From the NCBI GenBank assembly GCA_947623585.1, contig CANQHA010000001.1, positions 124,001 to 188,000 on the forward strand: DNA of 64,000 nt. The letters are read 5' to 3'. This DNA is from an uncultured Clostridia bacterium. Its GTDB lineage: Bacteria; Bacillota; Clostridia; Oscillospirales; Ruminococcaceae. The position numbers were made by a program, and so were the translations under genes. The notes beneath the pieces were generated by a model that saw only the letters and a program-made list of their open reading frames with translations, was not told the DNA's origin and made no database searches. Of this stretch, positions 7,221 to 64,000 are shown one piece after another (position 1 is the stretch's first letter; every line of letters starts with the position of its first letter).

Positions 7221-8420
7221 TCACTTGGATATAAGCCTTACAAACTGTTTTTTGCCCTTTTTGAGGACGACCCCGCCGCCTATCTTTACGACATGGTTGA
7301 CGTCGGATATCTTAACGTCGTCAACGCTGACGCCGCCCTGCTGAACGAGCCTTCTCGCCTCGCCCTTTGAGGGGGCCAGCTTGGAAGTTACAAGCGCGTC
7401 AAGAACGCCTATCGTATCGCCCTCTATCTCGACGGTGGGCATATTTTCGCTTGAACCCGAGCCGCCGAAAACCGCTCTTGCGGCCTCAAGCGCCTTTTGA
7501 GCCTCCTCCTCGCCGTGGACCAGCTTTGTAAGCTCGAAAGCGAGTATCTCTTTCGCCTTGTTGAGGTCGCTGCCCTCCCACTTCTCCATTTTGTGAATTT
7601 CGTCAAGAGGCAGGAAGGTGAGCATTTTTATGCACTTGATTACGTCGGCGTCGGCGACGTTTCTCCAATACTGGAAGAAATCGTAGGGCGGGGTCTTCTC
7701 GGGGTCGAGCCAGACCGCGTTGCCGGCGGTTTTTCCCATTTTCATTCCGTTTGAATCGGTGAGGAGCGTTATGGTCATCGCCGAAGCGTCTTTTCCGAGC
7801 TTTCGCCTGATAAGCTCGGTGCCGCCGAGCATATTCGACCACTGATCGTCGCCGCCGAACTGGAGATTGCAGTTATAGTTCTTGAAGAGATAATAAAAAT
7901 CGTAGGACTGCATTATCATGTAGTTGAATTCGAGGAAAGAAAGTCCCTTTTCCATTCTCTGCTTATAGCACTCGGCTCTGAGCATATTGTTTACCGAGAA
8001 GCACGCCCCGACCTCTCTTAAAAGGTCAACATAATTCAGGTTAAGAAGCCAGTCGGCGTTGTTCACCATTATCGCCTTGCCCTCGCCGAATTCGATGAAG
8101 CGGGACATCTGCTTTTTGAAGCACTCGGCGTTGTGGTCGATGTCCTCGCGGGTGAGCATTTTTCGCATATCGCTTCGTCCCGAGGGGTCGCCTATCATCG
8201 TCGTTCCGCCGCCGATGAGCGCAATGGGCTTGTTTCCCGCCATTTGCAGGCGCTTCATGAGCGTCAGGGCCATAAAGTGTCCGGCAGTGAGACTGTCGGC
8301 CGTGCAGTCAAAGCCGATGTAAAACGTCGCCTTTCCGCTGTTGACAAGCTCGCGTATAAGCGCTTCATCGGTCACCTGCGCAATAAGCCCGCGCTCTTTA
8401 AGTTCTTCGTAAACTCCCAT
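7221..8420 (-). CDS. tyrS: Tyrosyl-tRNA synthetase
   Basis: TyrRS charges tRNA-Tyr with tyrosine in the cytoplasm. The 399-residue product has the class I HIGH-equivalent TAGHF near residue 49, a KMSKS-type KMGKT loop in the middle, and a C-terminal S4 RNA-binding domain (APSKGEARRLVQQGG). The frame stays open 60 codons further upstream, but that stretch is the T-box leader. The ATG at 8420 follows GAAAAAGGAGAAGTAAC, a strong ribosome binding site, and matches the family N-terminus (MGVYEELKERG). It is a single-gene unit with its own promoter, T-box and probable terminator. Confidence 0.97.
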   Translation of the reverse strand: MGVYEELKERGLIAQVTDEALIRELVNSGKATFYIGFDCTADSLTAGHFMALTLMKRLQMAGNKPIALIGGGTTMIGDPSGRSDMRKMLTREDIDHNAECFKKQMSRFIEFGEGKAIMVNNADWLLNLNYVDLLREVGACFSVNNMLRAECYKQRMEKGLSFLEFNYMIMQSYDFYYLFKNYNCNLQFGGDDQWSNMLGGTELIRRKLGKDASAMTITLLTDSNGMKMGKTAGNAVWLDPEKTPPYDFFQYWRNVADADVIKCIKMLTFLPLDEIHKMEKWEGSDLNKAKEILAFELTKLVHGEEEAQKALEAARAVFGGSGSSENMPTVEIEGDTIGVLDALVTSKLAPSKGEARRLVQQGGVSVDDVKISDVNHVVKIGGGVVLKKGKKQFVRLISK

Positions 8421-8440
8421 GTTACTTCTCCTTTTTCTAA

Positions 8441-8695
8441 AATAAAAACCCTCCGACGAAAGCCGGAGGGCGATCTTTAACCGCGGTACCACCTCAGTTC
8501 GCAAACGCAAAGCGCTTGCCTCTTGGCGCTGTAACGTGCGCAAAACGCATATCCCTAATAGAAAATCGTTCGGGATACGGACTCGGGGACGTATTCGCAC
8601 AGGGGCGCCGCGCTTTCTCGCACCATCCGAAAGCTCTCTTTATCGGAAACCCGGGGCTACTTGCTCCCGTCACAGTCTGTAAAATTTTCGGTTTT
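8441..8695 (-). promoter_or_regulatory. T-box riboswitch (tRNA-Tyr) in the tyrS leader
   Basis: The leader between the promoter and tyrS has the T-box signature AGGTGGTACCGCGG at 8494-8481. It is followed by a terminator hairpin (8470-8449, CCCTCCG/CGGAGGG) and a T-run to 8441. Upstream, an AGAGAGC element lies near 8640, and a GAATAC specifier-loop sequence (8596-8591) holds a TAC tyrosine codon. In this class uncharged tRNA pairs with the specifier and the T-box bulge, stabilises an antiterminator and switches tyrS on. The specifier assignment rests on position and sequence, not on a computed fold. Confidence 0.93.
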
Positions 8696-61809: not shown

Positions 61810-62364
61810 TCAGACGGTCATGATCTCCTTCTCTTTTGTCGAGACCATGGTATCGACGTTTTCGATATATTTGTCGGTCAGCTTTTGGATATCCTTGTCG
61901 AACAGCTTGACGTCGTCCTCGGTCAGATCGCCGTTTTTCTTCATGTTTTTGATCTTGTCGTTAGAGTCGCGGCGAATAGCTCTGACTGCGACCTTGGCGT
62001 CCTCTCCGAGCTTTTTGATGTCTTTTCCGAGCTCCTTGCGGCGCTCCTCGGTGAGCTGAGGGAAAGCGAGCCTTATTACGGTGCCGTCGTTAGAGGGGTT
62101 GATGCCGAGATCCGACGCCTGAATGGCCTTTTCGATGGCTTTGAGGGAGGATTTGTCCCACGGCTGAATGACGAGCACTCTCGCGTCGGCGACCGAGACC
62201 GCCGCCATCTGCTGAATAGGCGTCTGTGTGCCGTAATAATCGACCGTTATCCTGTCCAAAACCGCAGGGTTTGCGCGTCCGGCGCGAATGGCCGCAAAAT
62301 CTGAGGCGAGCACCTTCAGGGTCTTTTCCATTCTTTCCTTTGCGTTGTCAAGAACATCTTTCAT
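61810..62364 (-). CDS. frr: Ribosome recycling factor
   Basis: RRF splits the post-termination ribosome with EF-G. The 184-residue protein shows the complete family pattern: [65 protein letters not shown] and [27 protein letters not shown] precedes the ATG. It follows pyrH at 34 bases. Confidence 0.98.
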
Positions 62365-62398: not shown

Positions 62399-63478
62399 TT
62401 ACTTTTCGACCAGAGTTCCGACGTTCTCGCCCATGCAGGCTTTGTAAATATTGTCGGGGTCCTCGATGGAGAACACGATGATCGGAATAGCATTGTCGGC
62501 GCACATGGCCGCAGCGGTGGAATCCATAACGCCGAGGTGGTGGGTCAGAACGTCGTCGAGCTTTAAGGTGTCGTATTTAACGGCGTCGTCGTGCTTGTGA
62601 GGGTCTTTGTCGTAAACGCCGTCAACCATAGTCGCCTTGAGCATCACGTTCGCCTCGATCTCGGCGGCGCGGAGGCTTGAAGCTGTATCGGTCGAGAAGA
62701 ACGGGCTTCCGGTGCCGCAGCCGAAGATGACTACTCTGCGCTTTTCAAGGTGCCTTATCGCTCTGTTGCGGATATAAGGCTCGGCTATCTGGGTCATGAA
62801 AATAGAGGTCTGCACTCTGACGTCGATACCCATGGATTCGAGAACGTCCGCAATAGCGAGCGCGTTCATCGCCGTTGCGAGCATTCCGATGTGGTCGGCT
62901 CTGGTCCTGTCCATAGTTCCCGAGGAGCGGCCGCGCCAGAAGTTTCCTCCGCCGACGACTATTCCTATCTCAACGCCGGCGTCATATGCCTTTTTGATGC
63001 CCTTGCAGATGCTGTTTATCCTGTCAAAATCAAGGCCCGAGCCCTTTTTGCCGGCAAGCGATTCTCCGCTTAATTTCAAAAGCACTCTCTTATATTTAAC
63101 GCCGTCGGCAGGAGTGGAGACGGCCTCGGAAACAGGCGCTTTGACCTCGACCTTTCCGTGCTCTTTCTCATAGTCCGAGCGGATCTTATATACATAGTTG
63201 TAGGAAGTCCCGATCTCTTTTGCGATCTCCTTGGTGGTCATTCCCTGATCCATCAGCGCGATGACTTTTTTCTTGATAGATTTCCTCTTTCTGGAAATCC
63301 TTACCTTGCCGCCGGTCTTTCTGACGTGCTTCTGAATGACGTTATAGACGAAAGCATAGCTTACGCCGAGGGTCGAGGCGATATCGCCTATCTCCATTCC
63401 GCCCTCGTAAAGCGCTTTCATCTTTGCGCTCTTGCTGTTCTCGCTTTCGACTATAAGTGCAATATCGCTTTTTTTCAT
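62399..63478 (-). CDS. pyrH: UMP kinase PyrH with a tandem helix-turn-helix N-terminal extension
   Basis: The product has 359 residues, against about 240 for normal PyrH. Residues 128-359 are a complete UMP kinase of the amino acid kinase fold: [55 protein letters not shown] and [12 protein letters not shown]. Residues 18-59 and 70-110 are two similar helix-turn-helix units ([18 protein letters not shown] and [18 protein letters not shown], each then SY-x2-VY and ending GKV), joined by the basic RKRKSIKKK. There is no stop or Shine-Dalgarno before the kinase. TAGGAGGAATTTCAAT precedes ATG 63478. The kinase makes UDP; the extension may bind nucleic acid. Confidence 0.93.
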
Positions 63479-63510
63479 ATTGAAATTCCTCCTAAAGTAT
63501 CTATATAATT

Positions 63511-63539
63511 ATAATACACTAAAAAATATAAAAAGTAAA
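63511..63539 (-). promoter_or_regulatory. Sigma-A promoter of the pyrH-frr-uppS-cdsA-dxr-rseP-ispG-polC run
   Basis: TTTACT (63539-63534), a 17-base spacer and TATTAT (63516-63511) on the minus strand in a very A/T-rich stretch. TATAAT at 63513-63508 would give a 20-base spacer. Confidence 0.65.
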
Positions 63540-63556: not shown

Positions 63557-63576
63557 TCCGCGGAATTTTCCGCGGA
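63557..63576 (-). terminator. Terminator after gpsA
   Basis: TCCGCGGAA / TTCCGCGGA (63557-63565 with 63568-63576) is followed on the minus strand by CTTTTTTG. It begins 15 bases after the gpsA stop. Confidence 0.85.
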
Positions 63577-63590
63577 TTTTTATTGAAAAG

Positions 63591-64000
63591 TCATTCGGCG
63601 CCGATAGGTCTGCTCATTAAATCGCTTATCGCCTGCATTATCGGCTGAGATTTAAAGAGTATCTCGTTTATCTCCTCGGTGATGGGCATTTTGACGTTCA
63701 GCTTTTTCGCAAGGTCGAGCGTCGCTTTTGCGCAGGCATAGCCCTCGACGGTGCCGACCTGACGGACCGCCTCCTCGGGCTTAACGCCCTTTCCTATCAG
63801 CACGCCGGCGCGATAGTTTCGCGAGTGAACGCTTGTGCAGGTGACGACGAGATCGCCGAGCCCCGCAAGCCCAGAAAAGGTCTCTCTTTTTCCTCCGAGA
63901 GCCACGCCGAGACGGGTCATCTCATAAAGACCGCGGGTTATAAGGGCGGCTTTTGTGTTGTCTCCGAGGCCAAGACCGTCGCTTACTCCGCAGCAAAGCG
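63591..64000 (-). CDS. gpsA: NAD(P)H-dependent glycerol-3-phosphate dehydrogenase, C-terminal part
   Basis: GpsA makes sn-glycerol 3-phosphate for phospholipid synthesis. About 136 C-terminal residues are visible; the N-terminus lies beyond the window. I read the frame by hand to the edge: GLGLGDNTKAALITRGLYE, then TFSGLAGLGDLVVTCTS, SRNYRAGVLIGKG and VEGYACAKATLDLAKKLNV, all typical of the substrate-binding domain. It ends in MSRPIGAE. A terminator separates it from pyrH. Confidence 0.95.
   Translation of the reverse strand, partial: LCCGVSDGLGLGDNTKAALITRGLYEMTRLGVALGGKRETFSGLAGLGDLVVTCTSVHSRNYRAGVLIGKGVKPEEAVRQVGTVEGYACAKATLDLAKKLNVKMPITEEINEILFKSQPIMQAISDLMSRPIGAE

Follow-up and report, generated by a model that had tools for sequence, protein, structure and literature searches.

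A UMP kinase fused to a tandem helix-turn-helix module of likely DNA-binding type in two species of one clostridial genus

Why does UMP kinase, an essential and normally compact enzyme, carry a large added N-terminal domain in some bacteria, and can it thereby report nucleotide state to a promoter? The question is raised by the pyrH gene within a 64,000-nucleotide stretch of DNA (the window; GenBank assembly GCA_947623585.1, contig CANQHA010000001.1, positions 124,001 to 188,000) from an uncultured Clostridia bacterium of the Ruminococcaceae, where PyrH is covalently joined to what is likely a DNA-binding module, providing a natural test for which unfused relatives serve as controls. A preliminary description of this locus had noted a continuous frame, a ribosome-binding site ahead of the extension, and about 125 additional residues. 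All three observations hold, with the length corrected to 128 residues: a single open reading frame (ORF; 62399-63478, minus strand) with an ATG start and an AGGAGG motif (read by eye) 5' of it runs uninterrupted from the helix-turn-helix (HTH) part into the kinase and encodes 359 amino acids.

The kinase portion scores 298.9 bits against TIGR02075 (pyrH_bact; cut-off, 243.9) over residues 129-358, placing it within the bacterial PyrH family; its nearest solved structures are uridylate kinases (PDB 8yh1, 1z9d, and 2bne), and the conserved kinase blocks, STDT among them, are retained, as judged block by block with 28 PyrHs aligned. The fusion protein is the sole PyrH match in the window genome at E 0.001. 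At residue 247 the window PyrH has arginine (KRR), whereas glycine (KGR) occupies this position in at least 90% of the aligned PyrHs, including the second fused protein described below.

The extension contains two homologous HTH units, as first proposed, with their bounds now placed at about residues 16-55 and 63-107. The Pfam family HTH_23 matches it in two stretches with 44.5 bits (cut-off, 24.6), HTH_29, HTH_7, HTH_28, HTH_58, and HTH_Tnp_1 likewise exceed their own cut-offs, and HTH families score above curated cut-offs in both the window protein and a fused PyrH from a second species of the genus (genome G016; the window genome is G000). The two halves align to one another with a local score of 71 in the window protein and 59 in G016, in each case equalled by none of 2,000 shuffles. 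AlphaFold2 places helices at residues 16-25, 30-37, and 41-55 in the first unit and at 63-77, 82-89, and 93-107 in the second, with an additional N-terminal helix at 3-12; the linker that follows is predicted to be unstructured, with a predicted local distance difference test (pLDDT) score below 50 at residues 113-119. Mean pLDDT is 85 for the fusion and 80 for the extension alone, the extension model being informed by two sequences only.

Several observations indicate what this module may bind. The extension is basic in both fused species (pI 9.7-10.1, and 9.7 in the window protein; net charge about +10 to +15), and many of its closest matches lie in the DNA-binding regions of transposases, resolvases, and phage proteins. 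Tandem-HTH DNA binders are matched in PDB profile and Foldseek searches (2lvs in both; 1u78, 1k78, and 6pax in Foldseek), so that the pair resembles bipartite DNA-binding modules in its predicted fold, although the structural scores are weak. Judged from sequence and predicted fold, DNA binding by the HTH pair is likely; and since the two recognition helices of the window protein are similar to one another, a DNA target with two similar half-sites is suggested. Alternatively, the extension may have no role on DNA and instead bind RNA or a protein partner, or modulate the allostery or stability of the kinase. HTH folds can bind RNA or proteins, one Foldseek match to the extension is the SelB C-terminal domain with selenocysteine insertion sequence (SECIS) RNA, and the basic charge would suit such a role; however, two tandem units are present and most of the nearest named matches bind DNA, and we regard this explanation as unlikely.

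The genus set comprised 31 genomes, of which 30 gave a PyrH match, the other (G020) being 76% complete. Only two of the 30 PyrHs, those of G000 and G016, are fused (match from residue 1); the fusion lies at the same insertion place, with gpsA and frr flanking the gene in both. In the remaining 28 loci the frame 5' of the kinase was read and contains neither an in-frame extension nor an HTH, and a tblastn search of the 30 genus pyrH loci with the two HTH parts (E up to 1) gave matches, in any frame, only in G000 and G016 (one of the 30 loci, L005, is short and lies at a contig end). The preliminary description had considered that relatives might encode the two parts as separate genes, and no such arrangement is seen at these loci; for the fused genes themselves, separate genes or an intervening stop were also rejected, the frame being open in both species.

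The fused proteins also appear to lack a route to a free kinase. In-frame ATGs within the window extension are at residues 20, 28, 76, and 80, and no ATG, GTG, or TTG is found from there to residue 132, which already belongs to the first kinase strand; the last such codon ahead of that strand in G016 is residue 20. The PyrHs of unfused relatives begin with M-x-P-x-YKRV or similar, a start that both fused genes have lost, and the internal start that the preliminary description had raised as a concern is therefore not present just ahead of either kinase. Because the native start is gone and no start codon stands shortly before the kinase, the whole PyrH output of the fused species would be made as the fusion, barring an unusual translational re-start.

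A wrong start codon, a frame error, or an assembly chimera of an HTH gene with pyrH could in principle mimic such a gene. G016 is a metagenome assembly, as perhaps is the window genome with its 43 contigs, and just two cases are known. Nevertheless, the arrangement recurs in two species between gpsA and frr, the two extensions are 46% different yet align gap-free over 102 residues, the other forward frames of the fused genes are interrupted by stops, and neither gene offers a start immediately before the kinase. An artefact is thus scarcely credible.

Is the HTH part itself under selection? The lack of stops and frameshifts in the extension is no evidence of HTH function, since the frame has to stay open for the kinase that follows it; conservation of the amino acids does count as such evidence. 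Between G000 and G016, identity is 55/102 in the HTH part (ungapped alignment) and 213/231 in the kinase. When the same nucleotide changes were placed at random (stop codons being reset to the original codon), mean identity was 33.9 with a standard deviation of 3.5, and 55 was reached in none of 2,000 replicates. Changes in the HTH part number 33, 32, and 62 at codon positions 1, 2, and 3 (p 0.001), the third being about twice the first or second. NG86 estimates for the HTH part are 0.45 for nonsynonymous divergence (dN) and 2.2, a saturated value, for synonymous divergence (dS); bootstrap dN/dS is below 1 in 500/500 replicates, including 132 with saturated dS that were counted as 0. Because the ratio for the HTH part would be about 0.43 when the kinase dS of 1.05 is used instead, the amino-acid constraint is, by these estimates, moderate. 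It is distributed unevenly, with identities of 8/10 in both helix 1 of the first unit and the aligned part of the second recognition helix, 8/15 in the first recognition helix, and only 5/15 in helix 1 of the second unit.

Beyond the genus, the extension profile detects no further fusion in samples of 395 family and 398 phylum genomes, and a whole-protein search finds none among the matches listed in an order sample (374/394 genomes matched) and a phylum sample (298/299 matched); the family, order, and phylum samples overlap. A PyrH-type match at E 0.001 is present in 97 of 99 relatives, although some of these matches are to other kinases only. Several long frames were inspected as candidate fusions and rejected. 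Nine (G669, G589, G470, G560, G078, G074, G008, G037, and G061) are stop-free leaders in which no HTH is recognisable by eye, and have a start close to the kinase; G085 has a leader without an HTH by eye, though no methionine at the kinase; and in G1064 and G796, tsf and pyrH are parted by a stop. The preliminary description knew of no account of this architecture, and we likewise found none in the titles and abstract openings of the literature searched, whose coverage mostly excludes subscription papers. The fusion is rare and lineage-specific, with two species in one genus. The tree built from four neighbouring proteins puts G000 and G016 in one seven-species group (support 62), though not as sisters; a single gain with several losses, transfer inside the genus, and two separate gains are all possible.

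Searches for a donor of the HTH part returned little. Among the window genome and 98 relatives, only G000 and G016 rise above chance (next match, E 0.0035). In the family sample the third row (G118, 3.4e-6) is by eye a recombinase-like protein, and in the phylum sample the other rows have E 3.1e-6 or weaker; five of these latter loci were read and hold other HTH-containing proteins, none of them PyrH (0/5). No relatives were found among 31 and 97 pattern matches in viral contigs, and matches in phage (4 records) and plasmid (22 records) sequences are all weak and partial. GTDB contigs yielded, from 110 pattern matches, one locus, CANQUJ010000003.1, which corresponds to G016.

How might such a protein act? 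E. coli PyrH is a hexamer and responds to UTP and GTP. The reading that we tentatively favour, and to which we give slightly less than an even chance, is that HTH-PyrH acts on DNA as a 'trigger enzyme', making the occupancy of a promoter depend on the state of the pyrimidine nucleotides. The kinase would make pyrimidine nucleotides as usual; it is expected to form a hexamer like its E. coli counterpart, each particle of which would carry six modules, and so twelve HTHs, on flexible tethers, and the HTH pairs would bring it to DNA through two similar half-sites. If a response to UTP and GTP exists here and alters the particle, DNA binding may alter too. A stronger form, in which the twelve-HTH hexamer reads UMP, UTP, and GTP and sets transcription directly, without PepA and in parallel to PyrR, as an arrangement of one genus, is doubtful.

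The preliminary description had suggested the operon of pyrH itself or the pyr genes as targets, and neither proposal fares well. The pyrH promoter core (TTTAC...TAGTGTA) is conserved in 13/13 aligned subclade species, fused or unfused, and comparison of promoter regions with those of unfused species reveals no operator-like gain near pyrH in the fused species. No candidate operator was found near pyrH or pyrC in the two fused species, the rest of the genome not being motif-searched, and the 140 bases upstream of pyrH share no 14-mer with the pyrC leader at up to one mismatch. All five species read (two with the fusion, three without it) share the pyrC-K-D-F-E-B-I genes, whose names were assigned by eye, and a conserved leader in front of them that combines a terminator-like hairpin with a GCGGC-GAGGTCG-like block. 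From its motif, we take this leader to be a PyrR-type attenuator, although it is not recognised by Rfam: RF00515 (PyrR) exceeds its cut-off in 0/31 genomes, with weak matches in G026 only, and a second search gives no match at E 0.1. In an RNAalifold model, 7/30 pairs are changed on both sides; because the covariation term is +1.4, the fold is not proven. A PyrR-family protein scores over cut-off in 14/31 genus genomes, G000 and G016 included; the remaining genomes show nothing beyond weaker matches, and control of the pyr genes may thus vary within the genus. The pyr operon likely has a regulator independent of the fusion and, because PyrR persists in both fused species and unfused relatives share the leader, is unlikely to be the main target.

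The lack of an operator found near pyrH or pyrC and the rarity of the fusion are weak points of the regulatory reading, which has a serious rival. The module may bind DNA without regulating genes, either as a nucleoid tether of UMP kinase or as a captured mobile-element domain that was kept once the native start had been lost. The many transposase, resolvase, and phage DNA-binding parts among the closest matches, the patchy distribution (2/30), and the lack of a new operator near pyrH are all consistent with it, and loss of the native start would make the fusion hard to lose. On the other hand, the constraint on the HTH part, highest in the first helix of unit one and the recognition helix of unit two, suggests more than ballast, even though folding alone could account for much of it. 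We consider this explanation possible.

The features of the locus, and of the pyrC leaders, are collected in Table 1. Elsewhere in the window, a T-box leader (RF00230, 121.7 bits; 8463-8682, minus strand) overlaps the 5' part of a tyrosyl-tRNA-synthetase-like ORF (7221-8600 in its longest form), so this gene probably starts further in.

Table 1. Coordinates of the fused pyrH gene, its parts and surroundings in the window, and of pyrC leaders at five loci (L141 to L145)
Feature	Position	Strand	Remarks
pyrH-HTH fusion gene	62399..63478	-	359 codons plus stop
N-terminal extension, residues 1-128	63095..63478	-	absent from 28/30 genus PyrHs
First HTH unit, residues 16-55	63314..63433	-	recognition helix 41-55, assignment inferred from fold
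Second HTH unit, residues 63-107	63158..63292	-	recognition helix 93-107, assignment inferred from fold
Linker, residues 108-128	63095..63157	-	AlphaFold2: unstructured, partly low confidence
UMP kinase domain, residues 129-359	62402..63094	-	profile match, structure match, alignment
Ribosome-binding site AGGAGG, 5' of extension	63488..63493	-	read by eye
Promoter-like TTTACT-17-TATTAT	63511..63539	-	consensus match
Terminator-like hairpin and T run, between gpsA and pyrH	63557..63576	-	consensus match only
frr, downstream gene	61810..62364	-	same order in relatives read
gpsA, upstream gene (3' part in window)	63591..63998	-	same order in relatives read
pyrC leader	L141:2462-2622	-	
pyrC leader	L142:2526-2682	-	
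pyrC leader	L143:2509-2652	-	
pyrC leader	L144:3830-3974	+	
pyrC leader	L145:2304-2457	-	

With Cbp1 and Cbp2, archaeal proteins that bind CRISPR repeats, the extension shares a tandem HTH arrangement (reportedly two units in Cbp2 and three in Cbp1), and PDB 2lvs, which we take to be Cbp2, is its top Foldseek match and the second in the PDB profile search. However, NF040595 (Cbp1/Cbp2) scores 37.6 bits against a cut-off of 140, outside that family, and the extension is bacterial and kinase-fused; the likeness is probably one of general HTH similarity. Tc1/IS630-type transposases and Pax proteins (1u78 and 6pax) similarly have paired HTH subdomains, and appear as weak Foldseek matches in rows 2, 10, and 18, but the fusion is not a transposase, and at 33.2 bits it falls short of the IS630-type transposase model NF033545 (cut-off, 100). 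Relative to other bacterial UMP kinases, it has the full domain and the gpsA-pyrH-frr-uppS gene order of its relatives, and differs in its 128-residue HTH extension and the loss of the kinase start codon. Enzymes with a DNA-binding domain are a known class, the trigger enzymes BirA, PutA, and NadR among them, and a DNA-binding type of fold within the enzyme's own chain is found in both fused species. These enzymes, like E. coli PyrH at carAB, bring a metabolic activity together with the control of transcription, whether by direct joining or by a looser link. According to one report, the E. coli carAB promoter P1 escapes pyrimidine control in pyrH mutants, purified PyrH did not bind the carAB site, attraction through PepA was proposed although not validated, and the mode of action is unsettled (PMC6245113). 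Whereas no direct DNA binding by PyrH was seen there, the HTH domain is covalent here and regulation is proposed only, and the fusion would short-cut the recruitment step that has been proposed for PepA in E. coli.
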